Shown here: piece after piece, positions 5,343 through 48,668 of the stretch | Numbering within the stretch: the first letter of the stretch is position 1 | Layout: each line of letters starts with the position of its first letter | Source: Candidatus Peribacteria bacterium | GTDB taxonomy: Bacteria > Patescibacteriota > Gracilibacteria > Peribacterales > Peribacteraceae | Length of the DNA: 64,000 bases | Assembly (NCBI GenBank): GCA_023245935.1 | Contig: JAHFJM010000001.1 | Location: forward strand, 1 to 64,000 | Direction of reading: 5' to 3' | Translations under genes and position numbers: made by a program | The notes under the pieces: model-generated | Databases searched by the model: none | What the model saw: only the letters and a program-made list of their open reading frames with translations | Told to the model about the DNA's origin: nothing

Positions 5343-5371
5343 TTGCAATATATTCGTAAAAAGAGTACAAT
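5343..5371 (+). promoter_or_regulatory. promoter of the 5400-10936 gene pair
   Basis: TTGCAA at 5343-5348 and TACAAT at 5366-5371 are separated by exactly 17 bases, upstream of the ATG at 5400. The same TACAAT box with a 17-base spacer precedes the second small-ORF/giant-protein pair at 26221. Confidence 0.6.
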
Positions 5372-5399
5372 TGTCAGATTTATTTCACACAAATACCAA

Positions 5400-5690
5400 A
5401 TGAGCGCTTCCCTCTTCCAGGAAAAAGTTCTCGGTTACTCGCATTTGCCTGATGCATTTCTGAAGGCACTTGCGAATGTCGCTGACCGTATTTCGGAAGA
5501 CAAGCGCACGGAGATCCTTGCAGAGCTCGATCACAGTGCGACGAGGGAACTCGATATTCTCGAGAAGGGCTACAAGATCATCGCAGAGGCGGAGAAGAAC
5601 CTTCGCAAAGATGTGGAGAGTGCGGAACACGAACAGGAACTGAGCAATGCCGATGCACTTCTGAATCAGTCTTCCAATCCTTCAGCATGA
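5400..5690 (+). CDS. small helical hypothetical protein, translationally coupled to giant protein
   Basis: This is a 96-residue, Glu/Ala/Leu-rich protein with no signal peptide. Its second half (about residues 35-85) has the heptad-like charge pattern of a coiled coil. I recognise no family. The ATG at 5400 is 28 bases after the -10 box. Its TGA overlaps the next ATG as ATGA (5687-5690), so the two proteins are probably made together. The pair divides the ribosomal block between map and infA. Confidence 0.75.
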   Translation: MSASLFQEKVLGYSHLPDAFLKALANVADRISEDKRTEILAELDHSATRELDILEKGYKIIAEAEKNLRKDVESAEHEQELSNADALLNQSSNPSA

Positions 5691-8600
5691 AGAATTTCTT
5701 CTTCGCAGAACAGCGGCTGATCGGGTTCACGGGTGAAGCGAAGCCTGATGAATCGTCACAGCTCAAGAAAGATCCTTTCGCACCCGAGACGGGTGAGATG
5801 AAAAAAGAAGACAAGGAAAAGGATGAAGCTATAGGAAGTAATAGAAACGAGGAGATCGCTCATGGCAAAAAGAAGTTGGAGGGAGTCACTGACCGATACA
5901 AAAAACTGTCACAGCAATTCTCCACTTTTAATGTTGATGGGAAAGCAAACAATGCTTTTCAAGAGAAATTCCGAGAGATTGATGCGGCAATCAAGGAGGT
6001 CCCTGCGCGGTTGGAGACCAATCACAAAGAAACGATAGAGAAGATTGATGCCATGCTTGCCGAGATTGATGTCTTCCTGAATACATTGAACAAGGGAACA
6101 ACCAAGCGACTCAATAAAATCCCAAGTCTGCAGCCGGCACCTCAAAAAGGTGCTGATGCGATTAGGCCCAACGCCAAAGGAACCCCTGCAGCTACTCCTG
6201 CAGCTCCGAAAGCAAAACCAACGACGGACTATGAGGAGCCAACGACAAAAGCTCCTGATGCGGCTGAATCTGAGCAATCAACGCTAATCGGATATGAGAA
6301 AGCAATGCCGAAACCATTTGAAGTAAACAAAGAGCCGACAAAGCCTGCAAAGCAGACCGAGCAAGCTCCGGAAGCAGACAAAAATTCCGACATCAAGAGT
6401 GCGATGGACAACCTCGTCTTCTTCCTGGGTGCACACGAATTTGATGACAATGCGAAGAGTGCCCTGGATCAGCTCAACGCAGGACTCGAAAAACGCAAGC
6501 TCTTGGACGGAAAATCCAAAGCTCTTGCGTCTGTCGGTCTCATGAAGGAAGGAAATGATGTCGATGGCAGACTGATGCGAACTCCGAAAACAAGAATCGT
6601 CGAGAATCCGAATAGTGGAAGTAAGTATGAGATTGGAACCGATATCGACTCGACAAAAGTTTGGGTTGCGGAAGTAAAGCAGGAAGGTGCCAAGCCCAAG
6701 TCGGCACCGAATACCGTGCCCAATACAATCAACCCATTGTTTGCATTGAGAAAAACAACCGTCAATGCAGCGAGACTGATCGCAACGCTGGAGAAAGAAG
6801 TGCAGAGCACATCAAATCCGATGGATCCTGCTCTCGTTGCAAAAATGAAACAGGCTCTTGCCGCGTATTGCGAAGCAGGGCTCAAGGAGTGGGGAGCACT
6901 TAAGAATCAGGTCAAAGACAGAGATGAAGGAAGAATGAAAGAACTGGAAACCGATGTCTTGATCAAGAAAGGAAGATTGATCGTTCTCAATAGTACGTTC
7001 CCCGACATCGCTCCGGCAGATCTTGCAAGCAATGCGCCGTCACTGCCTGCCACTCCGGAACCGAAGCCTGCAGGGAAGCCAGAATCGAATCAACCTTCAG
7101 CTGAACCGGTAGCACCCGCTTCGTCGCAGAATGCTCCGACAGCTGCAAAAGAGCAGAGCGAGAAAACGGATGAGTCTCCGTCGTCAGGACTTCGTCGTCC
7201 GAAGGACGTGATCACTGACAGCTTCCCGAAGAATCCGGAGGCATTCGTCAAACGTATGGAGGAGCTCCAAGAAAAAATCTGGAAGATGCAAGGAGAGAAG
7301 ATGGAGGCTCGGAAGACAAGGAATGACGTGAAAGTGCGTGATATAGGACATGATCTCTCGGCTCTCACAAAAGAATATTCAATGATGAACCAAGCCTTCC
7401 GCAAGAATACCGGAATGTCATTCGAGCGCTGGAAGAGTGATGACTCCGAGTACAATCAAGCGATTGCGGACAGAAAACGTCTGGAGAAGACTGGAGCATT
7501 CTCATCGGAAAGATTCAAGAAGGCTATGGCTGCGATGAATCCAGTTGTTCCTCAGGACGCTCCAAGCACGCCTGATGCAAATCCGAAAACAACACCTGAC
7601 GCTCCATCCGGAGCTCCGCAGGCAAAGGCGGATGCAAAGACGACACCAAACACTCCGAAAGCTGCTCCAAAAGGAACCGCTCCAGATACACCGGACGTTC
7701 CGAAAGCTACGCCAAAAGACAAAAAGACTGACACTCCGGATAAGCCACAAGAAGCACCGAAAACTAAAGGTCAAGCTCTTGGACGAGAAATGAAAGCTGC
7801 GCTCCAGAAAATGGAAAAAGCCGAAACGAAAGATGAAAAGTGGGAAGCGCTCCTGGAACTTCTCGCAGCCGCATTCAAGTATCTGGATGCACTCATTCAC
7901 GGAAGACTGAACGATGCCCACGACAGCAAGAACGCTCCCAAAGACACTCCGGAGCAGCTGAAATCGAAGGAGGTACATGCTCGTATTGCAGGAGAACTGA
8001 AAGCAAGAAGGGATGGAAAGCCTCTCGATGCACAGTTGACTGACATGGAAACGGAGAAGAAAAAAGAGCTCGCAATAACAGAGAATGACCTGAAGAAAAA
8101 TAAAACGGATACGGAAGAGGGTGAGAAGAAAGGTACCGAACTCGTTGCTCAGAAAACCGCTCTGGAAACAGAGCGAAAGAGTATGAAGAGTGATGATCCA
8201 AAAGCGGCGGCGTTGGATGCAAAGATCAAAGAATTTGGCGAACAGATCGTCCTCAATCAGGAAGCAGTCAAGAAACTCAAAGAGCGTCGTCCGGTGTTGC
8301 TCAAACAGGAAGAGCGACTTACGGAAGATCTGAAAGCGGTGAAGGAAATCAGCGAGGGAGTCGCGACGGTATTGAAGACACTCAAAGCAGGACTTGAGTT
8401 CCTTCTCAAAGAAAAAGCATTCGACAGTTACGCACTGAAGCTCTCACCCGAAGGCAATATTATGGTGAGCTTCGAAAATCCAACAGCAGGATTCTCTGAA
8501 AAAGTACAAGCAATAGGCGGAAAGGAGGAAGGGACTGCAGTGATAATCGACATCAGTAAGGTCGACACGGGGAAACTGGCACTACCGGTAAAGAATGCAC

Positions 8601-10936
8601 CGGGTGCAAGGAAAGAAGAGCCAGAAGACAAGATCGAAGCTCCTGCAGATGCGAAGAACCTCACGGTGCAGGAAATGGGTAAAGTGCTGAAGGACACTTG
8701 GACTGTCCTGAATGGAAAAATTGAACGAACGATGGCGAATATTCTTGAAGCCAAGAAAGACCTTGATGAAGTAAAGGCATCCGGTAATTGGTTCAGAAAA
8801 GGATGGGTCAGCAACGAAATCAAAACCAAAGAAACGAACTTCACTAAATCAACGGACGCGCTTGCAAAGCTGAATCAGTACAAAGCGAAGATCAGTCAGT
8901 ACGTCGATCCCTCCGGGGAAATCAAGAAGGATCTGAAACTCGATGAGAAGAAGGTTGCCGAGATCAACGACGTTCGAAAACAGCTCGGACTTCCTGCACT
9001 GCCACGGAACATGGTTGCGGATTATAAGGCATTCCAGGAAGAAGCAATTGCAAAGCACAAGGGTCGCGACAGGGAAATCGAGGTGGATTATGCGGCACTG
9101 AACAAGTCTCTACAGGAATCTGAAAAGGTACTACATGAGATCCAAGTGTGGGTTGAGAGAGCCGATACCGCTGCCGCTATCGGTGCATCAATTGCTGTGC
9201 CAGTCTGGGGTGCAGGAACCTATGCCGCAGTACGAAACCTCATGGACGTCTACGCAACAGGAGCCAAGCAGAAAGAAGAAGCACTGGCTGATTTCGCACT
9301 GATGTCATTCGCAGGTCTCGTCGGTGGTGCTGCGTCCGGAGTGACAAGCAAAGGAGTGGTTTCACTCGGAAAACTTGCTCCGGGAGCACAAAAAACGGTA
9401 ATGGCATGGGCACAGAAGAATGCTGCGTCTCTCTCCATGAGAGCAGCGCAGACATTCCTGGAGTACGGATCCAAGGCGGGACTGGGCGCAGTCTCCGGTG
9501 CCACGATGGCTGGCGTCGACTCTGGTGCACGCAATGCCTATGACGTTTCACATGGACGGAAGACCGAAGAACAAGCATGGGAAGAGACGAAGAGTGCCGT
9601 GAAATCCGGCGCGCTCACCGGTGCTCTGATGGGTGGAGCGATGCATGGAGTAGGAAAAGTTGCGAATCCGGCATGGGAAAAAACAAAAGCAGGAATGAAG
9701 AAAGGCGTGGAGAAGGTGAAGGCAAAAATAAAGTCTAAAGGTAAGCCAAAAGAGGAAAATCCTCCAAAAGATGACGAGTCTGGTGGAACCGCCAAGCCGA
9801 CCGATACACCTCCGGACACTCCTCCAAGCTCTCCCACAAGTACGCCAGAAACACCGGAAGCATCTGCAGGAGCTGCGCCTAAGAAGGAAGCACCGAAAGC
9901 AGCGCCCACCGCGCCTGCTGCAAGCCCAAGTGTCTGGAAAGAAGGTGAAAACTTCGCGCTGTTCCCCGGCATCACTCTCAAAGACGCATCCGGCAAACCA
10001 TTACCACATGGTGATTATAAGATCCTGCAATCCAGCAACTTTACGCCTCCGGGGAAGAGAGTACTGAACTATCGAGATGGCACTCCGGCAGGAAAGACAA
10101 TCATTGTGAATGAAAGTGATTTGAGTCAGATCCCGAAAACTCCTGCAGCGCCACCACCGCCTGCGATGAAGAATGCGCCAAAGGCAGCGCCTACGGCTGC
10201 TCCGTCAAAGCCCAGCGAATGGAAAGCGAATGATGGTTTTGCCATTTATAAAGGAAACTCGTTAAAAACAGCCGACGGAAGGACGCTTGCGAACGGTGAT
10301 TACCGAGTGGAGCCACGAACGCCTTCGACGCCTGCGGGCGAGACAATTGTCAGTCGGAGCGACGCTGGACGAACTGGAGAACGTATAGAATTCTCAGTGA
10401 GAACTGAGGATCTTGCTCGGATGCCGAAAACTCCTGCAGCACCACCTCCACCTGCAATGAAAAATGCACCAAAGACCGCATTTAAGTCGGAAGGAGAGAA
10501 TAAGCTGGATCAGCTTGTTGCACAGGAGAAGCAACTTCGTGCCGAAGTAGACAAATACAAGCCAGGAACATCGAATCCGAGTCTTGAGAAAAAACTAGAG
10601 GATGTTCGTAGTGACATAAAATTTTTACGTGGAATAAAAGCGGCTGGGAGAGCGCAGGTTGAACAGATTCTTTCTTCACCTTCCGCGTCCTTTAGCCAGA
10701 TTGAGGATAATATGATTACCTATCTGGCATTCCATGAGAACCCAAATATCGCACTTCTACAAAAACATATACCTACATTTACGAGCAGATTGAAAGAATT
10801 GGAAACAACCCTACTACCGAAGAGCAACCCATTAACAAAGGATGGGGTGATATTAGCGGCAGAGGCTCAGCATCTACCTAGTCTAATCTTAAAAATGCAG
10901 GAAATCATTGCCAATGGTATCAAGCACGGCAACTAA
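5687..10936 (+). CDS. giant multidomain hypothetical protein (1749 aa), coiled coils, Gly/Ala hydrophobic core, tandem C-terminal repeats
   Basis: I recognise no family for this 1749-residue protein. There is no cleavable signal peptide; it begins MKNFFFAEQRLIGF. Pro/Ala/Lys/Thr-rich linkers lie near residues 150-225, 440-500, 620-700 and 1355-1415. Long charged helical, probably coiled-coil stretches lie near 785-900 and 985-1155. A Gly/Ala-rich hydrophobic region at about 1158-1318 could insert in or lie on a membrane. Two tandem domains at about 1413-1498 and 1508-1595 share a W-K-x-x-x-x-F-A core, a G-D-Y motif and the closing segment PKTPAAPPPPAMKNAPK. A final helical part follows. Its start overlaps the small upstream gene, and its stop overlaps the convergent map gene by four bases. 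A surface or envelope scaffold is conceivable, but that is a guess. Confidence 0.92.
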   Translation: MKNFFFAEQRLIGFTGEAKPDESSQLKKDPFAPETGEMKKEDKEKDEAIGSNRNEEIAHGKKKLEGVTDRYKKLSQQFSTFNVDGKANNAFQEKFREIDAAIKEVPARLETNHKETIEKIDAMLAEIDVFLNTLNKGTTKRLNKIPSLQPAPQKGADAIRPNAKGTPAATPAAPKAKPTTDYEEPTTKAPDAAESEQSTLIGYEKAMPKPFEVNKEPTKPAKQTEQAPEADKNSDIKSAMDNLVFFLGAHEFDDNAKSALDQLNAGLEKRKLLDGKSKALASVGLMKEGNDVDGRLMRTPKTRIVENPNSGSKYEIGTDIDSTKVWVAEVKQEGAKPKSAPNTVPNTINPLFALRKTTVNAARLIATLEKEVQSTSNPMDPALVAKMKQALAAYCEAGLKEWGALKNQVKDRDEGRMKELETDVLIKKGRLIVLNSTFPDIAPADLASNAPSLPATPEPKPAGKPESNQPSAEPVAPASSQNAPTAAKEQSEKTDESPSSGLRRPKDVITDSFPKNPEAFVKRMEELQEKIWKMQGEKMEARKTRNDVKVRDIGHDLSALTKEYSMMNQAFRKNTGMSFERWKSDDSEYNQAIADRKRLEKTGAFSSERFKKAMAAMNPVVPQDAPSTPDANPKTTPDAPSGAPQAKADAKTTPNTPKAAPKGTAPDTPDVPKATPKDKKTDTPDKPQEAPKTKGQALGREMKAALQKMEKAETKDEKWEALLELLAAAFKYLDALIHGRLNDAHDSKNAPKDTPEQLKSKEVHARIAGELKARRDGKPLDAQLTDMETEKKKELAITENDLKKNKTDTEEGEKKGTELVAQKTALETERKSMKSDDPKAAALDAKIKEFGEQIVLNQEAVKKLKERRPVLLKQEERLTEDLKAVKEISEGVATVLKTLKAGLEFLLKEKAFDSYALKLSPEGNIMVSFENPTAGFSEKVQAIGGKEEGTAVIIDISKVDTGKLALPVKNAPGARKEEPEDKIEAPADAKNLTVQEMGKVLKDTWTVLNGKIERTMANILEAKKDLDEVKASGNWFRKGWVSNEIKTKETNFTKSTDALAKLNQYKAKISQYVDPSGEIKKDLKLDEKKVAEINDVRKQLGLPALPRNMVADYKAFQEEAIAKHKGRDREIEVDYAALNKSLQESEKVLHEIQVWVERADTAAAIGASIAVPVWGAGTYAAVRNLMDVYATGAKQKEEALADFALMSFAGLVGGAASGVTSKGVVSLGKLAPGAQKTVMAWAQKNAASLSMRAAQTFLEYGSKAGLGAVSGATMAGVDSGARNAYDVSHGRKTEEQAWEETKSAVKSGALTGALMGGAMHGVGKVANPAWEKTKAGMKKGVEKVKAKIKSKGKPKEENPPKDDESGGTAKPTDTPPDTPPSSPTSTPETPEASAGAAPKKEAPKAAPTAPAASPSVWKEGENFALFPGITLKDASGKPLPHGDYKILQSSNFTPPGKRVLNYRDGTPAGKTIIVNESDLSQIPKTPAAPPPPAMKNAPKAAPTAAPSKPSEWKANDGFAIYKGNSLKTADGRTLANGDYRVEPRTPSTPAGETIVSRSDAGRTGERIEFSVRTEDLARMPKTPAAPPPPAMKNAPKTAFKSEGENKLDQLVAQEKQLRAEVDKYKPGTSNPSLEKKLEDVRSDIKFLRGIKAAGRAQVEQILSSPSASFSQIEDNMITYLAFHENPNIALLQKHIPTFTSRLKELETTLLPKSNPLTKDGVILAAEAQHLPSLILKMQEIIANGIKHGN

Positions 10937-11694
10937 GCCACCACCTCACACCCCCCTTCGGTAATCAGCACCGAATGTTCGAAGTGACAGGAGAGACTCC
11001 GGTCTTTCGTGATCACCGTCCACTGGTCTTCAGCTGTAAATACGTCGGGTGAGCCCATCGCGGCGATCGGTTCAATCGCAATCATCGTACCGACGGGGAG
11101 CACCGGACCCGTGCCTGCTTTGCCGACGTTCGGAACATCGGGGAACTGATGCAGCGTCGTGCCAAGCCCGTGCCCTGTAAGCGTACGGACTGCGCTGTAG
11201 CCTGCTTTCTTGAGGTGCTGCTCGATATAGGAACTGATGTCTCCAACCTGCACACCCGCCTTCACAACGTTCGCAATCACGTCTTCAAGTGTCTGCGAGA
11301 CATGCGTCAAAAATTTCTGCGTCGACGGCTTGATGCGCCCCACCCCGACCGTGATGCAGGCATCGGTGTAGAGATCGTCAACGATCACTCCCCCATCGAG
11401 CGAAATAATATCCCCTTCCTTCAGGACTTTGTCGTCACGAGGAATACCGTGCACGACTTCTTCGTTGATCGAGGTACAGAGCGTGCCGGTGAAGCCGTAG
11501 TACCCGAGGAACGCCGGTCTTCCGCCCTTCGTGAGTATGAATTCCTCCGCCATCGCATCGAGCATCTTCGTCGTGACACCGGGCACCGCCGCCGCACCCA
11601 CGAGCTTCAGACAATCGCGAAGGATCGCTCCACCCTTGCGAATGGACGCCATTTCCTCAGGCGTGAAAATTTGGAAACGATTCGAGAAAGACAT
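10933..11694 (-). CDS. map: methionine aminopeptidase, type I
   Basis: The enzyme removes the N-terminal methionine from nascent proteins. The 253-residue product has the pita-bread fold motifs and all five metal ligands: Asp100 (SLDGG), Asp111 (YTDAC), His175 (GHGLG), Glu208 (AIEP) and Glu239 (FEHS). His82 in VHGIP is the conserved substrate-side histidine. Length matches type Ia enzymes without an N-terminal extension. It follows the two adenylate kinases on the same strand (secY-adk-map order). Confidence 0.97.
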   Translation of the reverse strand: MSFSNRFQIFTPEEMASIRKGGAILRDCLKLVGAAAVPGVTTKMLDAMAEEFILTKGGRPAFLGYYGFTGTLCTSINEEVVHGIPRDDKVLKEGDIISLDGGVIVDDLYTDACITVGVGRIKPSTQKFLTHVSQTLEDVIANVVKAGVQVGDISSYIEQHLKKAGYSAVRTLTGHGLGTTLHQFPDVPNVGKAGTGPVLPVGTMIAIEPIAAMGSPDVFTAEDQWTVITKDRSLSCHFEHSVLITEGGCEVVA

Positions 11695-11738
11695 GAAGGC
11701 ATACTATCAGAAACTCAGCTGTACGATTGTGCAGCCAG

Positions 11739-12461
11739 TTATGCGGGAATCGCAATAGACTCATCCTGCAAAGATCCGCTCAGCACCTGCTGGACGCGCG
11801 CGTAGACTGCCTGGATACTCTCATGAACCTCATCAGGATGTGCACGTGTCGGATCAAGCCCGGTATCACCATCCACATGGATCAATCTTCCCTGACGTCG
11901 AAATTCGTCGATCACCGGAACCGTCTCTTCGTAAAACGTGCGAATTCTCTTTTCAACAACCTCCGGCTTCGCATCATCTGCACGACCTTCAACTTTGGCA
12001 CGATAGGCGATATTTTTCCTTGCAGTTATGTCTGAGACAGCGATATGGAGCAACTTCGCATCACCACGACCGACCTCTGTAAGGGTCTGATCGAGTGCAT
12101 GCTTCTGCTTGAGTGTTCGAGGGATGCCGTCGAACATCACACGGGAGACACTGTCTCTCTGAAGAGTAAATTCCTGCACAATGCGCATCACAGTTTCCTG
12201 TGAAACCAATGCTCCGGTCTTCTGTGCTTCTCGCACCAACTGACCTAATTCTGTTTCCTGAGCTGCAATCTTGCGTAGCTGCGCACCCATATCGAACCCC
12301 GCATACTCGAAATCCTTTTGCAGCATCTTTCCCTGCGTTCCTTTACCCGAACCCTGTATGCCGGCAAGAATCAGAGTGTTTGGAGGTGTAATCACTGATT
12401 CATGGTGCCGTGCTTCAGCTACATGATGTGAATGGTGCGAGTGAAGATGGAGAGAATTCAT
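11739..12461 (-). CDS. adenylate kinase paralogue with His-rich N-terminus
   Basis: This is a second nucleoside-monophosphate kinase of adenylate kinase type next to adk. The P-loop GIQGSGKGTQ begins near residue 34. FDGIPR is the NMP-binding loop and EGRADD the short lid, as in the neighbouring adk. Before the P-loop is a 28-residue leader with eight histidines in the first 20 residues, and the C-terminus is longer than usual (240 residues in all). A TTGACA/TAATAT promoter at 12463-12492 ends one base before the ATG. If that promoter is used, transcription would begin inside the leader, and a GTG at codon 23 (VITPPNTL) would be the more likely start. Substrate may be AMP or another NMP. Confidence 0.9.
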   Translation of the reverse strand: MNSLHLHSHHSHHVAEARHHESVITPPNTLILAGIQGSGKGTQGKMLQKDFEYAGFDMGAQLRKIAAQETELGQLVREAQKTGALVSQETVMRIVQEFTLQRDSVSRVMFDGIPRTLKQKHALDQTLTEVGRGDAKLLHIAVSDITARKNIAYRAKVEGRADDAKPEVVEKRIRTFYEETVPVIDEFRRQGRLIHVDGDTGLDPTRAHPDEVHESIQAVYARVQQVLSGSLQDESIAIPA

Positions 12462-12556: not shown

Positions 12557-13117
12557 TTACGATACTTTCTGCTTCAAACTGTCATAAATATCGTCTACAG
12601 ATCCTTTTGCAACGATATCGATCACTTTTTCTGCTTTTTGATAGTGCTGGATTACCGGCATGGTTTTCTCGAGAAATGTGCTCATTCTGCGCTTAATAAT
12701 GTCTGTATTTGCATCATCCGCCCTTCCTTCCGCCTTTGCGCGCCCGAGAATGCGGTTTGTCGCCTCCTCCTGACTCAGGAGGAAATGAATGCACCGGAAA
12801 TCACGACCGGCAGCCTCCATAATCGCATCGAAATCACGCATCTGAGCATCGTCTCTGGGAATACCGTCGAAGAGAATCTTGGTGGATTTTGGACGAGCGG
12901 CAATCGCCTCTTTCACGACTTGCATGATGATCTCGTGAGGCACAAGGTGCCCTTGGTCGATGGTGCTCTTCACGAGATGACCCAGTTCGGATCCGGAGGC
13001 TGCGATCTTCCGAAGTTCTCCTCCCGCCTCGAAGATGTCGTAACCGAACTCAGCCGCAAGCTTCTTGGCTTGAGTTCCTTTGCCGCTGCCTTGAATGCCG
13101 AAAAAGACTAAATCCAT
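12557..13117 (-). CDS. adk: adenylate kinase
   Basis: Adenylate kinase interconverts ATP + AMP and 2 ADP. The 186-residue product starts directly with the P-loop (MDLVFFGIQGSGKGTQAKKL), has FDGIPR for the AMP site and GRAKAEGRADD for a short lid, so it is the short form without the zinc lid insertion. The usual GFPR is GIPR here and in the paralogue. It sits 22 bases after secY as in many bacteria. Confidence 0.95.
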   Translation of the reverse strand: MDLVFFGIQGSGKGTQAKKLAAEFGYDIFEAGGELRKIAASGSELGHLVKSTIDQGHLVPHEIIMQVVKEAIAARPKSTKILFDGIPRDDAQMRDFDAIMEAAGRDFRCIHFLLSQEEATNRILGRAKAEGRADDANTDIIKRRMSTFLEKTMPVIQHYQKAEKVIDIVAKGSVDDIYDSLKQKVS

Positions 13118-14425: not shown

Positions 14426-14869
14426 CTACGCTCTCACAATCGTAATGGAGCCGCCCGCTTTCTCGACCGCTTCTTTTGCGGAGACGGAGACGGCGTAGAC
14501 GCTGAGGGCAAACTTCTTGGTCACTTTACCGCGTCCGAGGATCTTCACCGGCATCTTGCCGCTCACGATGCGGAGCGTCGCAAGCGTCTCTTTATCATGC
14601 GTTCCTGCGGGGACTTTCGCCTCGAGGGTATCGAGGTTCAAGACTTCGACTTCCACGCGTGACGGGCTGATGAAACCACCGAGTTTCGGTTGCCTTCGGA
14701 TGAGAGGCGTCTGTCCTCCTTCAAACCCCAGGCGGCGACCTTTACCCGTGCGGGACTGCTGACCTTTGGTACCGCGACCCGCGGTAGAGCCGCGACCGGA
14801 ACCGTTGCCGCGGGCGAACCTGCGACTGGTGTGCGTGGAACCCTTGTTTGGCTTGAGCGTGTGAAGCAT
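14426..14869 (-). CDS. rplO: 50S ribosomal protein uL15
   Basis: uL15 is a 50S protein with a long basic N-terminal extension threading into rRNA. The 147-residue product has LKPNKGSTHTSRRFARGNGS and GRGTKGQQSRTGKGRRLGFE, then the globular C-terminal domain. The ATG at 14869 is where similarity begins; the frame is open upstream but not uL15-like. In most bacteria uL30 lies before uL15; here no uL30 gene exists, and plus-strand genes separate rplO from rpsE. Confidence 0.97.
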   Translation of the reverse strand: MLHTLKPNKGSTHTSRRFARGNGSGRGSTAGRGTKGQQSRTGKGRRLGFEGGQTPLIRRQPKLGGFISPSRVEVEVLNLDTLEAKVPAGTHDKETLATLRIVSGKMPVKILGRGKVTKKFALSVYAVSVSAKEAVEKAGGSITIVRA

Positions 14870-14977
14870 ATAAGAAAACGATGCAGAGAGATCAAAACGC
14901 AGGGGAGTCTTTGTATGCCTCTGCGGACGAAGAGAGTACCGAGAAAAGGAGAGGAGGTAAAGGGAAAAGGAGCCCTC

Positions 14978-15007
14978 TTGACACACCCCAAAACCACTCT
15001 CTAAGAT
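14978..15007 (+). promoter_or_regulatory. consensus -35 promoter for candidate small RNA
   Basis: A perfect TTGACA (14978-14983) is followed after 18 bases by TAAGAT (15002-15007). Transcription should start near 15014. Downstream are three hairpins and a terminator but no convincing ORF. Confidence 0.5.
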
Positions 15008-15134
15008 ATGCCCGTGATTCATTCCCTGTCCCTTACGCTCAGTCTCTCCCTCCTGCTTACTGCGGGAAGGCGGCTGGCTGCGTAAGTGATTCGTCACAAA
15101 GCAGAGCCTCCTTCCCACGAGAGGCTGGTTTTTT
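15008..15134 (+). ncRNA. candidate structured small RNA (about 120 nt)
   Basis: Between a TTGACA promoter and an intrinsic terminator lies an RNA that can fold into three elements. The first is a long hairpin closed by CTTACGC (15032-15038) with GCGTAAG (15080-15086), with an inner helix CCTCCTGC (15049-15056) against GCGGGAAGG (15062-15070). The second is GTGA-TTCG-TCAC (15086-15097), a UUCG-type tetraloop. The third is the terminator. A 25-codon frame (15008-15085) also exists but would start before the expected transcription start. I could not match it to 6S, SRP, tmRNA or RNase P by eye. It could also be a leader attenuator for the ORF at 15166. Confidence 0.45.
15105..15134 (+). terminator. 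intrinsic terminator of candidate small RNA
   Basis: AGCCTC (15105-15110) pairs perfectly with GAGGCT (15121-15126), followed after GG by six T residues (15129-15134). Confidence 0.65.
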
Positions 15135-15135
15135 A

Positions 15136-15144
15136 TGTTATTAT
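15136..15144 (+). promoter_or_regulatory. extended -10 promoter for the ORF at 15166
   Basis: TGTTATTAT is an extended -10 element immediately after the T-tract of the terminator and 21 bases before the ATG at 15166. No -35 is visible. Confidence 0.4.
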
Positions 15145-15165
15145 TTCTCACTTCCAATTCTCCCC

Positions 15166-15339
15166 ATGAATCCCTCAACTGAGACACCGATGCAACAAGG
15201 AAACGACAACGTGAAGATCGATCGTGAACCATCCGTGCATGACAGCGTGTATCCGATCCACGCGATCATCGCTCACTGCGCGGCAGTGAGATCAAGAATT
15301 GAAGAAAGCAATGCAACGATCATCGATATTCCGGTCTAA
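15166..15339 (+). CDS. small hypothetical protein (57 aa) sharing a motif with its neighbour
   Basis: This is a 57-residue, hydrophilic protein of unknown function. Residues 34-41 read IIAHCAAVR, strikingly close to VIAHSAAVR in the 294-residue protein encoded next on the same strand. This suggests either gene duplication and decay or a shared small motif. It has its own possible extended -10 promoter. It belongs to a plus-strand island between rpsE and rplO. Confidence 0.55.
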   Translation: MNPSTETPMQQGNDNVKIDREPSVHDSVYPIHAIIAHCAAVRSRIEESNATIIDIPV

Positions 15340-15372: not shown

Positions 15373-16257
15373 ATGTCTACCATCGATACTCAAGACCAAA
15401 GAAATATCGTCGTTGATGAACGCGGCAGAGAATCAAGCGCTCCTAACCCAAACGATGATAAGGTTCAAACCGAAGCACGATTACTTTCAGAACGTTCCAT
15501 GGCAAAGTTATGGAAACTTGGTTACGTAGAAGCACCAAGCCCTGAGGCAGTACAGGGGTATATCGAAAGCCAAGGATTCTATTTACAGAAACATCTGCCT
15601 AAGGGGGATGAAGTGCAATTCTATGTGGGGAAAGGCGATGGGAAAAAGATCGGCATCAAGATACGAAAAGTTCCTGCAAGTCCGGAACAATCAGATACTC
15701 AAGAGACAATGAAGGTCTATTCGAGAGTGAGTAAAAGAAGAAAGTGGAGGGGTGGAGGGACGTGGAAGTTACACGAAGTTCCAGACGTCGTTTCCGGGCT
15801 GACAGAAGCTGCCGATATTCGACCGGAGAGACTGGAAAGTTACTGCCTAGAACAGAGACCCACTCGACGCTCGAAAAGCCCGTGGGCGCATCGGGATGCA
15901 GGTGCCCATAATGCGGTGAGGACGCATGAGACACATCAGGATGTTCTCGAAGCTGCCAAAGTCCAACACGAGCCTCCATCCATCCGACCGTACTCGGAAA
16001 AGGATCAATGGAACGTTATCGCGCACTCCGCTGCAGTGCGATTCATTCAGCATGTCGTGGCAAATCCCGATACCGATCCCGAGGATGCCTTTCGGAGAGT
16101 ATTCGATACTGGATCCATCGATGCACTCAACGAGAGCGGCATCGTTCTGGCTCTCATTAACCTCTGCGGAGAGATGCGATCCTCACTGGCACCGGAGCAG
16201 TTTCAGAGGCTGGATATGATCAAGTCTGCTGCAGTTACACAGTTTTGCATGCGCTAG
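15373..16257 (+). CDS. hypothetical protein, 294 aa
   Basis: I recognise no family. The protein is soluble by composition, rich in Glu, Arg and Ser, with no signal peptide or membrane segment. Residues 1-40 look disordered, about 45-105 are mixed with a KGDEVQFYVGKGDGKKIGIK beta-like stretch, and a helical C-terminal part contains VIAHSAAVR near residue 218. That motif recurs in the 57-residue ORF just upstream. It begins 33 bases after that ORF. It is part of the island separating rpsE from rplO. Confidence 0.75.
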   Translation: MSTIDTQDQRNIVVDERGRESSAPNPNDDKVQTEARLLSERSMAKLWKLGYVEAPSPEAVQGYIESQGFYLQKHLPKGDEVQFYVGKGDGKKIGIKIRKVPASPEQSDTQETMKVYSRVSKRRKWRGGGTWKLHEVPDVVSGLTEAADIRPERLESYCLEQRPTRRSKSPWAHRDAGAHNAVRTHETHQDVLEAAKVQHEPPSIRPYSEKDQWNVIAHSAAVRFIQHVVANPDTDPEDAFRRVFDTGSIDALNESGIVLALINLCGEMRSSLAPEQFQRLDMIKSAAVTQFCMR

Positions 16258-16745: not shown

Positions 16746-17414
16746 TTATCCTCTCGGTCCCTCGCCCATCTGCTTCTTGTCCTGTTCGTTCATCTTCACT
16801 TCCTTGATCGGAAGATTCGGACCGGACGGGATGTGAATGCCGAGATCCGCAGCGGATTTATTTGCCACTGATGCCGCACCGGACACTGCGACCGGAGCGC
16901 TGTCCGCTGCGACTGCCGCGCGGCTTCCACGAAGCATCGAAAGCGCTTTCATGGCTGCCTGAGCGTTCACGAGCTTATTACCGGTTCCAAAGCGCTTTGC
17001 GAGCGCGTCTTTCACGCCTGCAAGATCAAGAATGACACGCAGCGGTCCACCGGCGATGATTCCCGTTCCTTTGCTCGCAGGCATGAGACGGAGCTTCGCC
17101 GCCTTGTGCTTGATATTCACCTCGTGCGGAATCGTCGAGCCGTTCATCGGCACGATGATCATGTGACGCTTCGCATCGCGCTGCGCTTTCTGGATGGATG
17201 TCTGCACTTCTGTTGCTTTTCCGGTACCGAGACCGACCTTGCCTTTCTTGTTCCCGAGGACAACCACCGCGCGGAAGCGCATGCGGCGACCTCCCTTCAC
17301 GACACGCGTGACACGATCGATGGCAAGCGTGACATCTTCGTATTCGGACGGTTCGCGCTTCCTGTCGGAGCGACGATCGTTTTTCTTGCGGTCTGGACGG
17401 GAGGATTTAGCCAT
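16746..17414 (-). CDS. rpsE: 30S ribosomal protein uS5, extended
   Basis: uS5 helps form the mRNA entry channel and affects decoding accuracy. The S5 double-stranded-RNA-binding-like domain starts near residue 27 (YEDVTLAIDRVTRVVKGGRR), followed by the C-terminal domain with ASKGTGIIAGGPLR. At 222 residues it is longer than the usual 165-170 because of a Lys/Arg-rich N-terminus and a tail of about 45 residues. The ATG at 17414 follows the small ORF at 17420 by five bases. Confidence 0.97.
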   Translation of the reverse strand: MAKSSRPDRKKNDRRSDRKREPSEYEDVTLAIDRVTRVVKGGRRMRFRAVVVLGNKKGKVGLGTGKATEVQTSIQKAQRDAKRHMIIVPMNGSTIPHEVNIKHKAAKLRLMPASKGTGIIAGGPLRVILDLAGVKDALAKRFGTGNKLVNAQAAMKALSMLRGSRAAVAADSAPVAVSGAASVANKSAADLGIHIPSGPNLPIKEVKMNEQDKKQMGEGPRG

Positions 17415-17419
17415 GAAAA

Positions 17420-17704
17420 TCAGGAGTGAAGAAGAGTATGCGGAACGGAGAGTTGACCTTCGGCATTGTGCGCGGGAACTTTCCAATTGGCGATGACATC
17501 GCCCTCGAAATCCGGAGACAGGGCAGCGGCAGGGATTTCGAATGTCGCACTCACCTCACCGAGAGTCAGCAAAGCAGCCAAGCGCGAAGAATACGGGTTT
17601 GGAAAAGCCTCCTGATTGTTGTGCCCGACCTCCGTGAGATGCGCTGACAGATGATCGGTCAGTTCGGGTGTCGAAACGGTGATGGGAGCTTGGATTGATT
17701 GCAT
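17420..17704 (-). CDS. hypothetical protein inserted between rplR and rpsE
   Basis: A 94-residue ORF fills the gap between uL18 and uS5, which are adjacent in nearly all bacteria. It begins three bases after the rplR stop and ends five bases before rpsE, so it fits the operon exactly. The product (starts MQSIQAPITVSTPELTDHLS) is mildly acidic, unlike ribosomal proteins, with no signal peptide. I recognise no family. A ribosome-associated or assembly role is possible from position only. Confidence 0.65.
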   Translation of the reverse strand: MQSIQAPITVSTPELTDHLSAHLTEVGHNNQEAFPNPYSSRLAALLTLGEVSATFEIPAAALSPDFEGDVIANWKVPAHNAEGQLSVPHTLLHS

Positions 17705-26108: not shown

Positions 26109-26129
26109 GGGAAATAGTGAGAAAAAGCT

Positions 26130-26161
26130 CCCCTCTCCCAAGCCTCGGCGAGGGAGAGGGG
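26130..26161 (+). repeat. REP-like inverted repeat, copy 1
   Basis: CCCCTCTCCC (26130-26139) and GGGAGAGGGG (26152-26161) form a perfect 10-bp inverted repeat, followed by a G-rich TTGGGGGTGAGG. A diverged copy with the same flanking C-rich block lies at 48589-48613. It sits between two divergent promoters. Confidence 0.6.
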
Positions 26162-26181
26162 TTGGGGGTGAGGCGAAGATA

Positions 26182-26210
26182 TTGAATAAAAACGGTTTTT
26201 GAGGTACAAT
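26182..26210 (+). promoter_or_regulatory. promoter of the 26221-29927 gene pair, nearly leaderless
   Basis: TTGAAT (26182-26187) and TACAAT (26205-26210) are 17 bases apart. The ATG at 26221 starts only 10 bases after the -10 box, so the 5' UTR should be about four bases. Confidence 0.6.
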
Positions 26211-26220
26211 AGAGAGATTT

Positions 26221-26520
26221 ATGGCTGAAGTTCTGCCAAAAACGGCTCGGTCTCAAGAAGATGAAAATCTTGGATCGAAACAATCCAGACAAAACGTCGA
26301 ATCTGTTCGCCATGGTATCGGATCCACAATAGGATCGATGATGCAGTGGACTGATAGGAAAATCGATAATGCTGCAATGAATATTGGAGACGCTGTTTTC
26401 GACGGGATAGAAGTAGGAATAAAAACATCTGTTGCCCGCTTATGGAATTGGAAAACAGATGATGCAACTCCATCAAAAAAAATATCAAATAACCGAATCT
26501 TTTTCTCCAGACGATTATGA
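26221..26520 (+). CDS. small hypothetical protein coupled to second giant protein
   Basis: This 99-residue protein is of unknown family, Lys/Arg- and Asp-rich with an amphipathic middle (VGIKTSVARLWNW) but no clear membrane span or signal peptide. Its TGA overlaps the ATG of the next gene as ATGA (26517-26520). The layout copies the pair at 5400/5687: a TACAAT promoter with 17-base spacer, a ~97-residue ORF, then an overlapping giant gene. The two small proteins are not obviously similar in sequence. Confidence 0.75.
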   Translation: MAEVLPKTARSQEDENLGSKQSRQNVESVRHGIGSTIGSMMQWTDRKIDNAAMNIGDAVFDGIEVGIKTSVARLWNWKTDDATPSKKISNNRIFFSRRL

Positions 26521-29500
26521 AAACAAATATCAACGATAATCATTTCGGCGGTGAGCACAGACTCTGTTATGAAACCGCACCGGAAGCAAATCTGCAGAAA
26601 CTTGCAGAGACGCTCTCCGCGATGCAGCAGTCAGTAGAGGCGCCAACTCCCACTGAAGCTCCTGCAGCAGCAGAAAAAAAGGCTGTGCGCACTGAAACAA
26701 CGGAAGCGAGAACGTCGATCAAACTTGATGTCGCAGCCTCGCAGCTGCCAAAAGTTGACGCTGCCCCAGTCGCGCCTCCTGCGAGCAAAGAGACTGCTCC
26801 AGAAAAAACAAAGGCATCCGCCAAGCCAGAGGAGGCAAAGGATCAAACGCTTTTGGGGCAAGCACAAAAAATGTTTGAGGATGGAAAAAATTATGTGATG
26901 GGCACGGACAAGAAACCTGAAATTCCGGCAAAAGAAGGAGAGCCAAAGCCGGAAGCGAAAGGAATTTGGGAAGGTGCCAAAAAAATATTCAATGACGTCA
27001 AAGACGATTTTCAGAAAAGCAGCCCCGGCGTAAAGGCAGCCTATATCCTCAGTGCTTTTGTCGGTTTTCTTGCTGCTCGTTGGGCCTGGCGTAAGGCGTT
27101 CGGAGACGGAGAAAAAGAAGGGTTTGTAAAAAGTTCAGGGAAATGGCTCGCCTCTCTCGGCGCTGCCGGAGCAGCCGTTATTGCAGGAAAATCGACAATG
27201 GACTGGTGGAATAAGAAGACAGCCTCACCATGGGCTCTCGCCGGAAATATGGTGAGCGATCTCTGGAAGTGGGCGAGTGGAGCAAAAGGTGGGGATGAAA
27301 CACCACCTCCAAATGGCTCAGGCAATGACAACCCACCCGCGGCAGGAAACGATGTCTTGGATGCAGTGCGGGATGGTGTAAAAGGAGCCGGAAAACAATT
27401 TGGGGAGACCGTACCTAAAGGCGTGAATCTTGCAGTGCGAGACGGAAAGTTTTGGGTTGATCTCTTCAATACAAATAATATGGATGAGGCAATGAAACTC
27501 GTGGCAAATGATGGTGCGACCCTCGCATACGAAAATGGTGAATTTATTATCTACGACCTCGCATGGCGTTCTGTCGTGAAGTTACCGATGTTAAGCTTGA
27601 GCAAAATGTATGACTGGAAAGCCAATGGAAAGAAGCCAGACGATTTCTGGGAAGTGTATGCAGCATCAGGAGTTTCCTACTTCTTGGGGAAGAATGCACT
27701 GACAGGAAATTTTAAGGCGTTCGTTCCTCTCACAAAAAAAGATATGGCATGGACTATTATGAAAATCGGATCGGGACCCGCAAACTTCGTGATTGATGGA
27801 GCAAAATTCCTAACAGTTCCAATGCAGTCCGGCGGCATGAGTGCAATGAAATTGCGTTACTTAAAGTACACACTGCCGGTGAAACTAAAGCGGTTCGCAA
27901 CTGATGGTCTTGTGTTCAGCACTTGGTTCCAGAACGAGAAGCGAATCATAAACGATATCGAGAAATGCGTTCAATATGCCGATGAAATTAAAATCATGGA
28001 ACAATTTGGACCCTCGAAGAACGGATTTACCCGTCTATTCACAGCAGCGGAAATAGAGTCTTCTAAATCTCTCAAGAATGCCATCGCACAAAAGGTGCAG
28101 GGCTTCCTAAGGAATATGACAGTGCAAGAAGATACTCCTGAAATTTTGAGGGAAATGAAGAAGATAGCGAATATGGGAGAAGGTGATGAGTTCTATCGAG
28201 AACTGGAAAAAGTACGTAGTCATGTCATGAGCACTGCTGCGGAGACTGCGAAAGCCGCAAAAGCGACAACTGAAGCAACTGAAACTGCAACAAGTGGAGG
28301 GAAAACTTCTGCAAAGAAAATGCAGCAAGCTCCCGATGCAAAAACGACTGCAGCGAACGGTAAGTCAGTCGTATCGGATGCGAAGACAGCGGGCAAAGCA
28401 ACCGAAGCAGTACCCGCAGAAGTGGGTGCGGTGCCTGGCGCACGTACTGCAACAGCGACAGCAGAAGGAATGTCGTCTGAAGCAAAAGTTGCATCAGGAA
28501 CATCCGAGGCTGCAGCCGATGTCTCGAAAGCTGCAAAGACCGGAAAAGTTGCCGCTGGTGAAAAAGCCGCCGTGGAAACTGCCGAGGAAGGAGGAAAAGT
28601 TCTCGGAAAATTGGAACAGGCAATCCGCACGAACCCGAAACTCGCAGCAATACTCGAGCATCTGAAGGTGAGTCCGAAAGGTTTCCTCACAGTTCTCAGG
28701 AATGCGAAAGCAATGAAGCTCGCGGGGAAAGCGTTACCGTATGCCGGAGCGGGTCTGCAGTGGTGGATCTACACGTTCATCGACGAGCCTGAGTGGGAGG
28801 CAAAACTGGAGAAGGAGACGGATCCCCTCAAAAAGAAGATCATCGAGAATGAAATGTTCTCCGCGAGAGTGAACTGGAAGCTCGATGCTGTCGGTACTCC
28901 TGCCGCACTCAGCGGTGCAGGATTGACACTACTCATCGGCAATCTGGTGCGACAGCAGACGAACGAAGGCATCGTCGAAGGATCGAAATACATGCTGCAG
29001 GATCGCAAGGAACTGACAGAGAAATCTCCGGGTGCCATCCTCGCAGAAATCCAGAAGAGCAGCCCGGGTTCAATGGTGACGTACGGTCAGCGAGCCGCCT
29101 CTCTCGGAGAATCCAAAGCATTCGAGAAAGGAAACACATCCGCACGCAGTGAAGCGTACGCAGCGTACTTCGAGAAAAATGTCGTGCTTCCGCCGGTCAC
29201 GGTGGATCTGCTGAGCGCAGCGGAATCCAAAGATCCGGCAAATGTCGAAAAGCGCCTGAAGATTCTGAATCAGGATCAGGACAAGTACTTCACGCAGTCG
29301 GCACTCTCGTACATCGCCAATGTGACGAAGAATACCTTCGCGATGGTCAGCCCCGATGAACTCCACAATGCAGAAATCTATGCGAAGAAATCGTGGCGGG
29401 ATTGGGTCCATGCGAGGACGGGACAGCCAAGCACTTTCACAAACCTCAGTGCGAGTGAGAAGCAGAAGCTCGTGTCAGAAACCGCAAGAAAAGAGAAGAC

Positions 29501-29927
29501 TGACCGCATCGCCGAGATGAAGAAACAGATCGAGAGCGGAGTGGCGACACGCGAAGCCATCTCATTCGCAATGCTCGAGAGCATCAACAACGATCTCTCA
29601 GTCGCAGAGAGCAAGATTCTCAGCAAAGACTACTCGAACTGGAGTGTTGCCAATTGGACAAATGAAAATGAAATGCAGCAGATTGCACGCGGTCAGTATC
29701 AGAAGAAGATCGGAGAGAAACTCAGACAAATTTCCTCGAGTGCTGCTCCCCTCACGGAACAAAGTTTCGATGCGGCGCGCCAGTTGGTTCTGAATATCCT
29801 GCAGCTGGATCCGGATGCGCTTGCGGTCGAAGGACTGAAGAGTACCGAGCGAGCGAAACTCGCTGAGAAAGGCAAAGATCCTGCGAGTATGACGATGGCA
29901 GGCATACTCTATGGCATGGCAGCCTGA
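26517..29927 (+). CDS. large Ala/Lys-rich membrane-associated hypothetical protein (1136 aa)
   Basis: I recognise no family. The N-terminus reads MKTNINDNHFGGEHRLCYET. The F-x2-E-x-R-L part matches the other giant protein (FFAEQRL). Residues about 40-160 are Pro/Ala/Lys-rich and probably disordered. Two hydrophobic stretches follow at about 171-190 and 205-222, and two more near 735-760 and 795-815, suggesting membrane association. Between residues 570 and 715 is a low-complexity Ala/Thr/Lys/Glu region. The C-terminal 300 residues are charged and helical. The gene is followed by the lysS promoter. Confidence 0.9.
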   Translation: MKTNINDNHFGGEHRLCYETAPEANLQKLAETLSAMQQSVEAPTPTEAPAAAEKKAVRTETTEARTSIKLDVAASQLPKVDAAPVAPPASKETAPEKTKASAKPEEAKDQTLLGQAQKMFEDGKNYVMGTDKKPEIPAKEGEPKPEAKGIWEGAKKIFNDVKDDFQKSSPGVKAAYILSAFVGFLAARWAWRKAFGDGEKEGFVKSSGKWLASLGAAGAAVIAGKSTMDWWNKKTASPWALAGNMVSDLWKWASGAKGGDETPPPNGSGNDNPPAAGNDVLDAVRDGVKGAGKQFGETVPKGVNLAVRDGKFWVDLFNTNNMDEAMKLVANDGATLAYENGEFIIYDLAWRSVVKLPMLSLSKMYDWKANGKKPDDFWEVYAASGVSYFLGKNALTGNFKAFVPLTKKDMAWTIMKIGSGPANFVIDGAKFLTVPMQSGGMSAMKLRYLKYTLPVKLKRFATDGLVFSTWFQNEKRIINDIEKCVQYADEIKIMEQFGPSKNGFTRLFTAAEIESSKSLKNAIAQKVQGFLRNMTVQEDTPEILREMKKIANMGEGDEFYRELEKVRSHVMSTAAETAKAAKATTEATETATSGGKTSAKKMQQAPDAKTTAANGKSVVSDAKTAGKATEAVPAEVGAVPGARTATATAEGMSSEAKVASGTSEAAADVSKAAKTGKVAAGEKAAVETAEEGGKVLGKLEQAIRTNPKLAAILEHLKVSPKGFLTVLRNAKAMKLAGKALPYAGAGLQWWIYTFIDEPEWEAKLEKETDPLKKKIIENEMFSARVNWKLDAVGTPAALSGAGLTLLIGNLVRQQTNEGIVEGSKYMLQDRKELTEKSPGAILAEIQKSSPGSMVTYGQRAASLGESKAFEKGNTSARSEAYAAYFEKNVVLPPVTVDLLSAAESKDPANVEKRLKILNQDQDKYFTQSALSYIANVTKNTFAMVSPDELHNAEIYAKKSWRDWVHARTGQPSTFTNLSASEKQKLVSETARKEKTDRIAEMKKQIESGVATREAISFAMLESINNDLSVAESKILSKDYSNWSVANWTNENEMQQIARGQYQKKIGEKLRQISSSAAPLTEQSFDAARQLVLNILQLDPDALAVEGLKSTERAKLAEKGKDPASMTMAGILYGMAA

Positions 29928-42330: not shown

Positions 42331-45300
42331 TTATTTCTTCTTGGCCTCAACCTCATCATCGTCGCTTTCGACCGCTTCTTTCATTTCATCTTTCGCAGTC
42401 TCGGCTTCGATATCACCTTCTTCGATCCCCTTCTTGATCTCGTCGGGGTCTTCTTCGTCGAGGTTCAGGTCGGAGATTTTATCCGTGGAAGGAATGAGTT
42501 CTTCCGTCTCCTGCTCTTCATCGAAACGGGTCTTGAGCTTCACCACTTCAGCCTCACCTTCGGCAAGCTGCACAACCGGAGCTTCTGCAGGGACTTCGTC
42601 CGCAAACTTCAGGAGATCGACCTTGAGACCGAGTGCCTGGAGCTCTTTCACGAGAACGTTGAAGGATTCCGGAGTGGACGGCTTCTTGATGGTCTCGCCT
42701 TTCACGATCGACTCGTACGCCTTGCTGCGACCGACGACGTCATCGGACTTGATCGTGAGCATTTCCTGCAGCGTATGTGCAGCACCGTACGCTTCGAGTG
42801 CCCACACTTCCATTTCTCCGAAACGCTGACCTCCATGCTGCGCCTTGCCTCCGAGAGGCTGCTGCGTGACGAGGGAGTACGGTCCGACCGAACGAGCGTG
42901 GATCTTGTCTTCGACCAAGTGCAGAAGTTTCAGCATGTACACCTGACCGATCGTGGTCTCGTGTGCGAACGGTTCGCCCGTGCGACCGTCGAAGAGCTGG
43001 ATCTTGCCGGTATCCGGCAACTTCGCGAGTTTCAGGAATTGGAGAATCTGATCCGTGGAAATACCGTTCAACGCCGGCGTTGCGATTTTGAAACCGAGCA
43101 CCTGCGCCGCCCATCCGAGATGCGTCTCGAGGATCTGACCGATGTTCATGCGGGAGCTCACACCGAGCGGGTTGAGGATGATATCGACGTAGCGACCATC
43201 CGCGAGGAAGGGCATGTCCTCTTTGGCAACGATGCGTGCGACCACGCCTTTGTTTCCGTGACGACCCGCCATCTTGTCACCGACTTGGATCTTTCTGGTC
43301 TGTGCCACGAAGACTTTGATCTGCTTGATGACACCGGTCGGCAATTCGTCCCCTTCGGATCGATCGAAAATATGCACGTCGACGACTTTTCCTCCGGCTC
43401 CACCCGGCAAACGCAGCGAACTGTCCTTCACATCTTTCGCTTTGTCACCGAAGATCGCCTGGAGAATGCGTTCCTCCGGCGTGAGTTCGGTTTCTCCCTT
43501 CGGCGTGATCTTGCCGACGAGGATGTCGCCCTCGTGCACGGTTGCACCGATTCTGACGATACCGTCGACATCGAGATCTTTCAGCTTTCCCTCACCGACG
43601 TTCGGGATGTCGCGTGTAACGGTTTCTGATCCAAGCTTCGTATCACGGACATCCGTGATGTAGGACTCGATGTGAATCGAATCGAAGTGACCCTGCTCCA
43701 CGATGCGATCGGAAATGATGATGGCGTCCTCGAAGTTGTATCCACCCCATGACATGTACGCGACGAGCAAGTTCTGACCGAGAGCAAGCTCTCCTCCTTC
43801 GACGGCGGAACCGTCTGCCAGCACTTCGCCGGCGCGGACTTTCTGTCCCGACTCGATGCGCGGACGCATGTGGAAACACGTGCCCTGGTTGCTCCTGGCA
43901 AAGTTGTCGAGCGGATGGGTGACCTTCCGACCCGAGTGATAGAGAAGAACGATCTCGCGAGCATCGACTGTAAGCACTTCACCGTCCTCCTGCGCGAGGA
44001 GCACATGACCGGAAGCCCTGGCAGCGACGCTTTCCATACCGGTACCGACGAGCGGAGCATGCGGCTTGATGAGCGGAACAGCCTGGCGTTGCATGTTCGT
44101 ACCCATGGACGCGCGGGTGTTATCGTCATGCTCGAGGAATGGGATGAGCGATGTGGAGACCGAGAGAATCTGCTTCGGAGAAATATCGGAATGCGTGACA
44201 TCGCGAACGTGCGCGAGCACCGGCTCGCCTTTCTTGCGTGCGTGAACGCGAGTGGCAAGGAGCTCATTCAAGCCGTTGATCTTGCTGTTCGCTTCGGCAA
44301 TCGTCAGGTGACGCTCACGATCCGCATCGATGTAAATTTCTTTCGGAACGATGAATGCGCGCACCGGAATATCCTTCAGATCCTGAGACTTGAGGAGGGA
44401 AATCACTTTGGATGCGAGTTGCTTCGTATCAATGGTATCGCCTTCTTTCGCGAGAACTTTGTGACCGTCGCGAACGGTGACATCGATCATGCGACCGACG
44501 AGGGCATCCGCATCCGGTTTCACGGAGTGCTTCACTTCGTAGTACGGCGTCTCGAGGAATCCGTACTCGTTCACTTTCGCATAGGATGCCAAGTGGACAA
44601 CGAGACCGATGTTCGGGCCTTCCGGAGTGGCAATCGGACAGATGCGACCGTAGTGACTGGGGTGCACGTCGCGGACGTCGAAGCTGGCGCGCTCACGGGA
44701 GAGTCCGCCCGGACCCATCGCGGAAAGACGGCGCTTGTGCGCGAGTTCCGAGAGCGGGTTCGTCTGATCCATGAACTGCGACAGCTGCGAACTCGCGAAG
44801 AACTCGCGGAGTGCCGCCGTGATCGGACGACAGTTGATGAGCTGGGTCGGCGTGATTGTCTCGAGATCCATCACCGTCATACGGTCTTTCATGATGCGCT
44901 CCGTGCGCATGAGACCGACACGGTACTTGTTCTGCACGAGTTCACCGACGGAGCGAACGCGTCTGTTTGAGAGGTGATCGATATCATCCGGGGTTCCCTC
45001 GCCATTGTTCAGACGCACGAGTTCCTTGAGAATTTCGACGAAATCGCTGACCTGGAAGACGCGGTGTGCTTCGTCGTTGGGCGTCGTGAATCCGAAACGG
45101 CGATTCAGTTTATAGCGTGCGATATTCCCCATGTCGTACTTCTTGAAATCGAAGAACAGCGCATCGATGAGGGACTTCGCATTCTCCGCCGTCGCGAGAT
45201 CTCCGGGGCGAATCTTGCGGTAGATGCTCTGGTACGCCTCGTCGACGGTGCGGATGCTGTCTTTCTCAAGGGTTGCGAGAATGTAATCCTTCTCCGACTT

Positions 45301-46344: not shown

Positions 46345-46530
46345 AGGGGGAGGGTTAAGGATGAGGGCTAGGGTTGGGACACAACAAAACACCGCGCAAT
46401 CATCCCAAACAGACAAAAGGGAAGACTGCACAGCTCTCAAAACACAATCGGAAGCCGCTGTGACGAAAGGATCTTATTGAGCTTTTCGCTCAATTGAAAG
46501 CGAAGATTCCATCGTGTGCTTTGTGTTCTA

Positions 46531-48564: not shown

Positions 48565-48588
48565 GCCACTAACGGTCCTCACCCCCGT

Positions 48589-48668
48589 CCCCTCTCCAAC
48601 GGCCAGAGAGGGGTGACTCGTGCTTTTCTTAAAACAAATCTTCCTCTCTTCGCCACAGCGGAGAGAGG
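48589..48668 (+). repeat. REP-like inverted repeats, copies 2 and 3
   Basis: CCCCTCTC (48589-48596) with GAGAGGGG (48606-48613) and CCTCTCT (48643-48649) with AGAGAGG (48662-48668) form two hairpins in the 207-base gap between femX and the S-layer gene. The first shares its core and C-rich flank with the inverted repeat at 26130-26161. Confidence 0.55.

Follow-up and report, generated by a model that had tools for sequence, protein, structure and literature searches.

Two gene pairs in the ribosomal gene region

The window analysed here spans 64,000 nt at the beginning of contig 6 in a Candidatus Peribacteria genome (G000) of 1.2 Mb. It contains two gene pairs, cassettes A and B, each formed by a small ORF and an overlapping gene for a giant protein.

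5343..5371, + strand: promoter A, TTGCAA-17-TACAAT (hexamers TTGCAA at 5343-5348 and TACAAT at 5366-5371, 17 nt apart)
5400..5690, + strand: SmallA, a helical protein of 96 aa with its start at ATG; a TTG start at 5343 would give a longer frame
5687..10936, + strand: GiantA, 1749 aa, starting inside the ATGA of SmallA (overlap 5687-5690)
26128..26173, no strand assigned: GC-rich palindrome directly 5' of promoter B; 0 expected in shuffles
26182..26210, + strand: promoter B, TTGAAT-17-TACAAT (TTGAAT at 26182-26187, 17 nt, TACAAT at 26205-26210)
26221..26520, + strand: SmallB, a Gly-containing amphipathic protein of 99 aa, atypical in composition (GC 40%)
26517..29927, + strand: GiantB, 1136 aa, starting inside the ATGA of SmallB (26517-26520)

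Cassette A occupies the map/infA junction and is read in the direction opposite to the ribosomal genes; GiantA converges with map (10933-11694, - strand), and the 3' ends of the two genes share 4 nt. Cassette B is flanked by rplC (- strand) and lysS (+ strand). Reading of the sequence confirmed the coordinates, promoters, ATGA overlaps and giant lengths of 1749 and 1136 aa given in a preliminary description of this DNA. No significant match in Pfam, NCBIfam, PHROGs or PADLOC was found for SmallA, GiantA, SmallB or GiantB. Since the PADLOC models match none of these four window proteins, an anti-phage defence system was rejected.

Matches to the two promoter patterns are not in excess over shuffled DNA (5 vs 3.4 and 4 vs 3.1). 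The sister species G001 retains promoter A, in the form TTGCGA-17-TATAAT, despite the diverged flanking DNA. The palindrome upstream of promoter B, CTCCCCTCTCCC...GGGAGAGGGGTTGGGGGTGAGG, has a second, partial copy at 48577-48598, and a comparable G-rich stretch apparently stands before a 1094-aa giant of genome G022 (L016, about 80-250).

Recurrence of the small gene and of the E-x-R-L tag

In Candidatus Peribacteria, genes of the small and giant type are a recurrent interruption of ribosomal and RNA-polymerase operons. At the map/infA site, a small gene and a giant gene are present in G001 and G002, which belong to the same genus as G000; giants are also found there in G027 and G022, and none in other genera. 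In G066 the order secY-adk-map-infA-rpsM is uninterrupted, with a map-infA gap of about 126 nt, and thus represents the empty site. SmallA and the small protein of G001 align with a score of 63, reached by 0 of 1000 shuffles. The first 16 or so residues of the giant are also retained (FFFAEQRLIGFTG in G000 vs FSTKEQRLLGFSG in G001), and the bodies of the two giants have no similarity; the promoter, the small protein and this N-terminal tag are what the two loci have in common. The ribosomal protein L3 is 95% identical between these genomes, so the giant body has been either replaced or diverged extremely fast.

A two-sequence SmallA profile was searched against 74 genomes of the same family. 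It found 14 loci in 13 genomes and nine genera (E from 1.6e-52 to 0.0023), counts that are not phylogenetically independent. Several of the loci compared in this work are cut by the end of a MAG contig. With leave-one-out profiles the SmallA members score 40-109 bits, and shuffled sequences at most 12. The conserved positions are F6, R36, L43 and E73. Seven of the 14 loci adjoin rpoC, followed in G030 by rpsL, rpsG and fusA. The large ORF directly 3' of the SmallA homologue has E-x-R-[LM] near its N-terminus in 12 of 14 cases, the exceptions being G029 and G032. The proposed two-gene unit therefore recurs, and the findings that would speak against it, homologues without the small ORF or a motif that is not conserved, were not what we observed for cassette A. 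The exact ATGA overlap is found in G000 and G084, and in G066 for another giant. It is not what is conserved; tight spacing is, with most pairs ranging between 20 nt of overlap and about 40 nt apart.

The tags of the two giants in the window are located as follows.

5708..5719, + strand: EQRL, residues 8-11 of GiantA
26553..26564, + strand: EHRL, residues 13-16 of GiantB (from the translation)

The tags downstream of SmallA homologues are EHRL (four), EQRL (three), ERRL (two), EARL, ESRL and ESRM, all within about 30 residues of the N-terminus. The strict form E-x-R-L is present in 11 of these 14 ORFs and in 8 of 642 other ORFs, so that it is not a matter of chance (naive P about 4e-19, relatedness ignored); at least three of the eight background ORFs (741, 468 and 308 aa) may be of the same kind. 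Position +4 after the tag start is L, I or V in 18 of 25 tagged N-termini; as this position was outside the search pattern, the preference independently indicates that the motif is real. The preliminary description had given the motif as F-x2-E-x-R-L. Its E-x-R-L part is conserved, whereas only four of the 25 N-termini have F at -3, and the conserved core is thus E-x-R-L-[LIV]. In the second copy of G007 the first ATG, GTG or TTG comes only after the tag, so that a non-standard start was assumed. The DNA pattern for E-x-R-L-x-[FY] is uninformative alone (81 matches in G000 vs 68 in the control).

A second small family, unrelated to SmallA, consists of proteins of 120 aa in G022 and 114 aa in G030 (score 131 vs a shuffled maximum of 59). 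It too stands before tagged ORFs, with ENRL and EARF.

Bodies of the giants and the B and C families

The tagged proteins with complete ends are about 600 to 1749 aa long, and BLAST detects no similarity among their bodies apart from that between close relatives and that between carriers of the A domain. The recognizable parts of the GiantA body are the following.

8600..9832, + strand: A domain (aa 972-1382), 410 residues, Gly/Ala-rich, helical
9929..10153, + strand: repeat 1 (aa 1415-1489), 42% identical to repeat 2, predicted SH3-like barrel
10214..10444, + strand: repeat 2 (aa 1510-1586), a repeat of ~75 residues

The A domain is strong in G022, G014 and G027 (E<1e-160) and weaker in G060 (E 1e-46) and G062 (1e-52), with three further borderline cases; none was found outside family f1. 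For the GiantA repeat, AlphaFold2 predicts an SH3/Tudor-like beta barrel (pLDDT 77), and a Foldseek search of the PDB gave no significant fold match (best E 0.59). Identity with lysostaphin SH3b was rejected, as the sequence match reaches only E 0.1. A hydropathy window detects no clear transmembrane segment in GiantA.

Long helical proteins with hydrophobic Gly/Ala blocks, encoded after small ORFs, could also be expected from remnants of phages or other mobile elements, namely tape-measure or ejection proteins with small chaperones. Matches of the pairs and their cluster neighbours to PHROGs are, in contrast, weak and scattered, none better than E about 0.006. Tail, capsid or integrase genes were not found nearby, no pairs were seen inside prophages, and the pairs are single copies at fixed housekeeping loci. 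A phage origin is extremely improbable.

The C-termini of other tagged giants differ. A 1090-aa protein of G007 (L174, 4035-7307), adjoining rpoC, ends in a domain similar to C13 peptidases (legumain/caspase-like); at E 2.7e-4 the match narrowly misses the Pfam cut-off. It contains 'FGAHGG' (His-Gly) and 'FVNTDACFTGG' (Asp-Ala-Cys), which we take to be the His motif and the Cys motif, respectively, of clan CD peptidases. A 602-aa tagged protein of G030 has a sub-threshold match to Tachylectin.

GiantB contains two features of a different type.

27021..27185, + strand: weakly hydrophobic hairpin (aa ~169-223)
28440..29903, + strand: B domain (aa 642-1129), present in 36 of the 74 genomes of the family

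The B domain of ~480 residues is characterized by N-x-x-R-x-x-A-Y-x-A-Y-F ... P-x-E-L-x-x-A-x-x-Y-A. The 36 genomes represent 24 of 40 genera and have one or two copies apiece, and the proteins that contain the domain are about 1100-1850 aa long. When the first alignment was searched across the class, it gave 0 matches outside the family. Many relatives of GiantB have stronger N-terminal hydrophobic hairpins at about aa 145-215, as judged by a hydropathy window only. GiantB is a member of a second, membrane-associated family, in which part of the members carry the tag and the small partner is different. An AlphaFold2 model of GiantB built with three sequences was not interpretable (mean pLDDT 32).

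The B giants have two usual homes: a cluster beside a PD-(D/E)XK-like gene, a PAP2-like gene and the prolyl-tRNA synthetase gene, and the arrangement rplS-csaB-[140 aa]-[200 aa]-giant-lepA (neighbours named by reading of sequences). In G000 the PD-(D/E)XK site (L184, G000:C5:43000-62000, at 10085-12242) holds only ORFs of 366 and 62 aa, and no B copy besides GiantB was found in this genome. GiantB has therefore apparently been relocated to rplC/lysS, and it appears to have moved together with a small ORF.

A small ORF stands just upstream of about 15 B- and C-type giants, about six of which are tagged. These ORFs are typically Gly-rich, of 65-98 aa, and most form a recognizable family. SmallB resembles them in position and character; homology was not demonstrated, as its score against this family is not above shuffles, and its similarity to a small ORF of G026 is marginal (11 of 1000 shuffles). 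The C giants (L046 7624-13017, L048 4315-9588, L024 1568-7165) are not detectably related to A or B and follow small ORFs of 68, 166 and 68 aa, respectively. They occupy rplC/lysS in G027 and G066, and the PD-(D/E)XK site in G029.

The two cassettes of the window had been suggested to be paralogous. This was ruled out for the giants by comparison of the A and B profiles (hhalign probability below 1%), and for the small proteins homology could not be demonstrated: SmallB scores below shuffled sequence against both small families, with -0.2 bits on the SmallA model, and SmallB-like models give SmallA no more than 3 bits. A match (L002/L146) near G000:C6:203000 was spurious. The likeness of the cassettes could come from two independent lineage-specific ORFans, alike by chance or through an insertion-tolerant locus, with the small ORFs being unrelated leader peptides for translational coupling. 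The lack of homology between GiantA and GiantB is consistent with this, as is the presence of different genes or none at the locus in other genera. However, SmallA is a family with conserved positions in nine genera, always just before a large ORF, and the enrichment of the tag is far above background. Independent ORFans are improbable as an overall explanation, being disfavoured for cassette A and possible for SmallB.

The giants could also be cytoskeleton-like components inside the cell, where the small protein and the tag would nucleate a helical or disordered scaffold in the cytoplasm or at the inner membrane. Such a role would agree with the long coiled or disordered stretches, the N-terminal hydrophobic hairpin of the B giants and the N-termini, which by eye have no evident hydrophobic signal peptide. 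Divergence of the bodies could be accommodated, because disordered scaffolds are weakly constrained; replacement of whole bodies between close species argues in the opposite direction, as does the apparent cysteine-protease domain at the C-terminus of the G007 protein. The hints of C13/caspase-like, Tachylectin and SH3-like domains speak for functional ends that vary rather than for a uniform scaffold. The codon adaptation index (CAI) of the giants is 0.56-0.60, compared with 0.70-0.75 for ribosomal genes (0.70-0.77 when the SLH genes are added), and does not suggest an abundant structural role. The envelope scaffolds of the preliminary description were not substantiated, with hairpins in the B type only and codon usage below that of ribosomal genes. 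We consider a scaffold somewhat unlikely.

Two long genes on the - strand of the window (42331-46440 and 48772-53097) have CAI values of 0.75-0.77, equal to or above those of ribosomal genes; by eye, one product is Lys/Ala-rich and the other contains SLH-like repeats.

A possible polymorphic system and its relation to known ones

The small partner and tagged giant look like an undescribed system of Candidatus Peribacteria. From the sequence features we suggest, with a probability of about 0.45, a family-specific two-gene polymorphic system in which a small helical partner or adaptor guides a tagged giant to the envelope or outside. The first gene would encode the small helical protein of about 100 aa. 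The second would encode a large protein whose N-terminal tag, E-x-R-L-[LIV], stays constant while the body behind it is replaced rapidly; that body combines disordered linkers with Gly/Ala-rich helical blocks and C-terminal domains of variable type. The small protein could be a dedicated chaperone, adaptor or anchor that binds the tag region while the giant is being translated from their common mRNA. It would then target the giant either to the membrane or to the cell exterior, and the variable body may function there in attachment, competition or proteolysis. If the small protein handles the tagged N-terminus, the bodies would be freely exchangeable, as in polymorphic secreted proteins.

This proposed system resembles polymorphic toxins and adhesins in its constant N-terminus and variable body and C-terminus; in contrast to them, the pairs include no immunity gene and no known delivery domain. 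Candidatus Peribacter riflensis has large strain-variable proteins, very large ones being those that differ most among related genomes of its class, and the giants highlighted there are Cys-rich with signal peptides, according to the consulted part of the account (PMC4736985). GiantA and GiantB, in contrast, have 1 and 2 Cys, respectively, and, judged by eye, no evident signal peptide. Neither an E-x-R-L tag nor a small partner appears in that part of the account.

Substrates of type VII secretion combine a helical N-terminus with helical partners into a composite signal and vary at their C-termini (PMC10730906). The likeness to LXG proteins of type VIIb is a small helical protein gene just before the gene of a large protein with a constant N-terminal and a variable C-terminal part (PMC10730906). 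The pairs could accordingly be a type VII-like export pair, in which the small protein and the giant N-terminus form such a signal as in LXG toxins. Gene order and partner size are the same, and GiantA has weak WXG100 matches at aa 57-126 (E 0.66 and 0.12). However, the constant N-terminal part of the giants is the short E-x-R-L tag only, and no WXG100 or LXG match was obtained for 12 SmallA members. The best score for EssC (TIGR03928) in the genome is 100.6 bits, for one 778-aa FtsK-like ORF, against a cut-off of 778.4, which weakens this reading. No immunity gene is visible, the next genes being map and lysS. Type VII-like export is highly unlikely.

LEPR-8K, or LEPR-XLL (NCBIfam NF012209), is a short N-terminal E-x-R-L-L-like motif of very large proteins. 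The giants described here are similar to these proteins in carrying a short E-x-R-L-like motif at the N-terminus; to our knowledge, the LEPR-8K definition includes no small partner. Membership was rejected, as the 24-position NF012209 model gave no match in G000 at E<=10.

No transport machine linked to the pairs was found. We speculate that E-x-R-L could be an N-terminal sorting tag that, together with the small adaptor, routes polymorphic giants through or onto the envelope in a way unlike known secretion. We regard this extension of the polymorphic system as unlikely; if true, the sorting route would include giants with protease or lectin-like ends. The prevailing view is that bacteria of the candidate phyla live on other cells, and few of the proteins that they use for contact have been identified. 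Homology searches miss giants of this kind because their bodies are unrelated; the short tag and small partner provide a handle on the whole class of these fast-evolving proteins.

The ribosomal region of the window contains other unusual genes. A 294-aa ORF (15373-16257, + strand) is located on the opposite strand within the ribosomal block, between the genes at 14426-15232 and 16746-17486. Two neighbouring adenylate-kinase-like genes (11739-12461 and 12557-13117, - strand) are located between map and secY, and the former has an unusual His-rich segment at its start.
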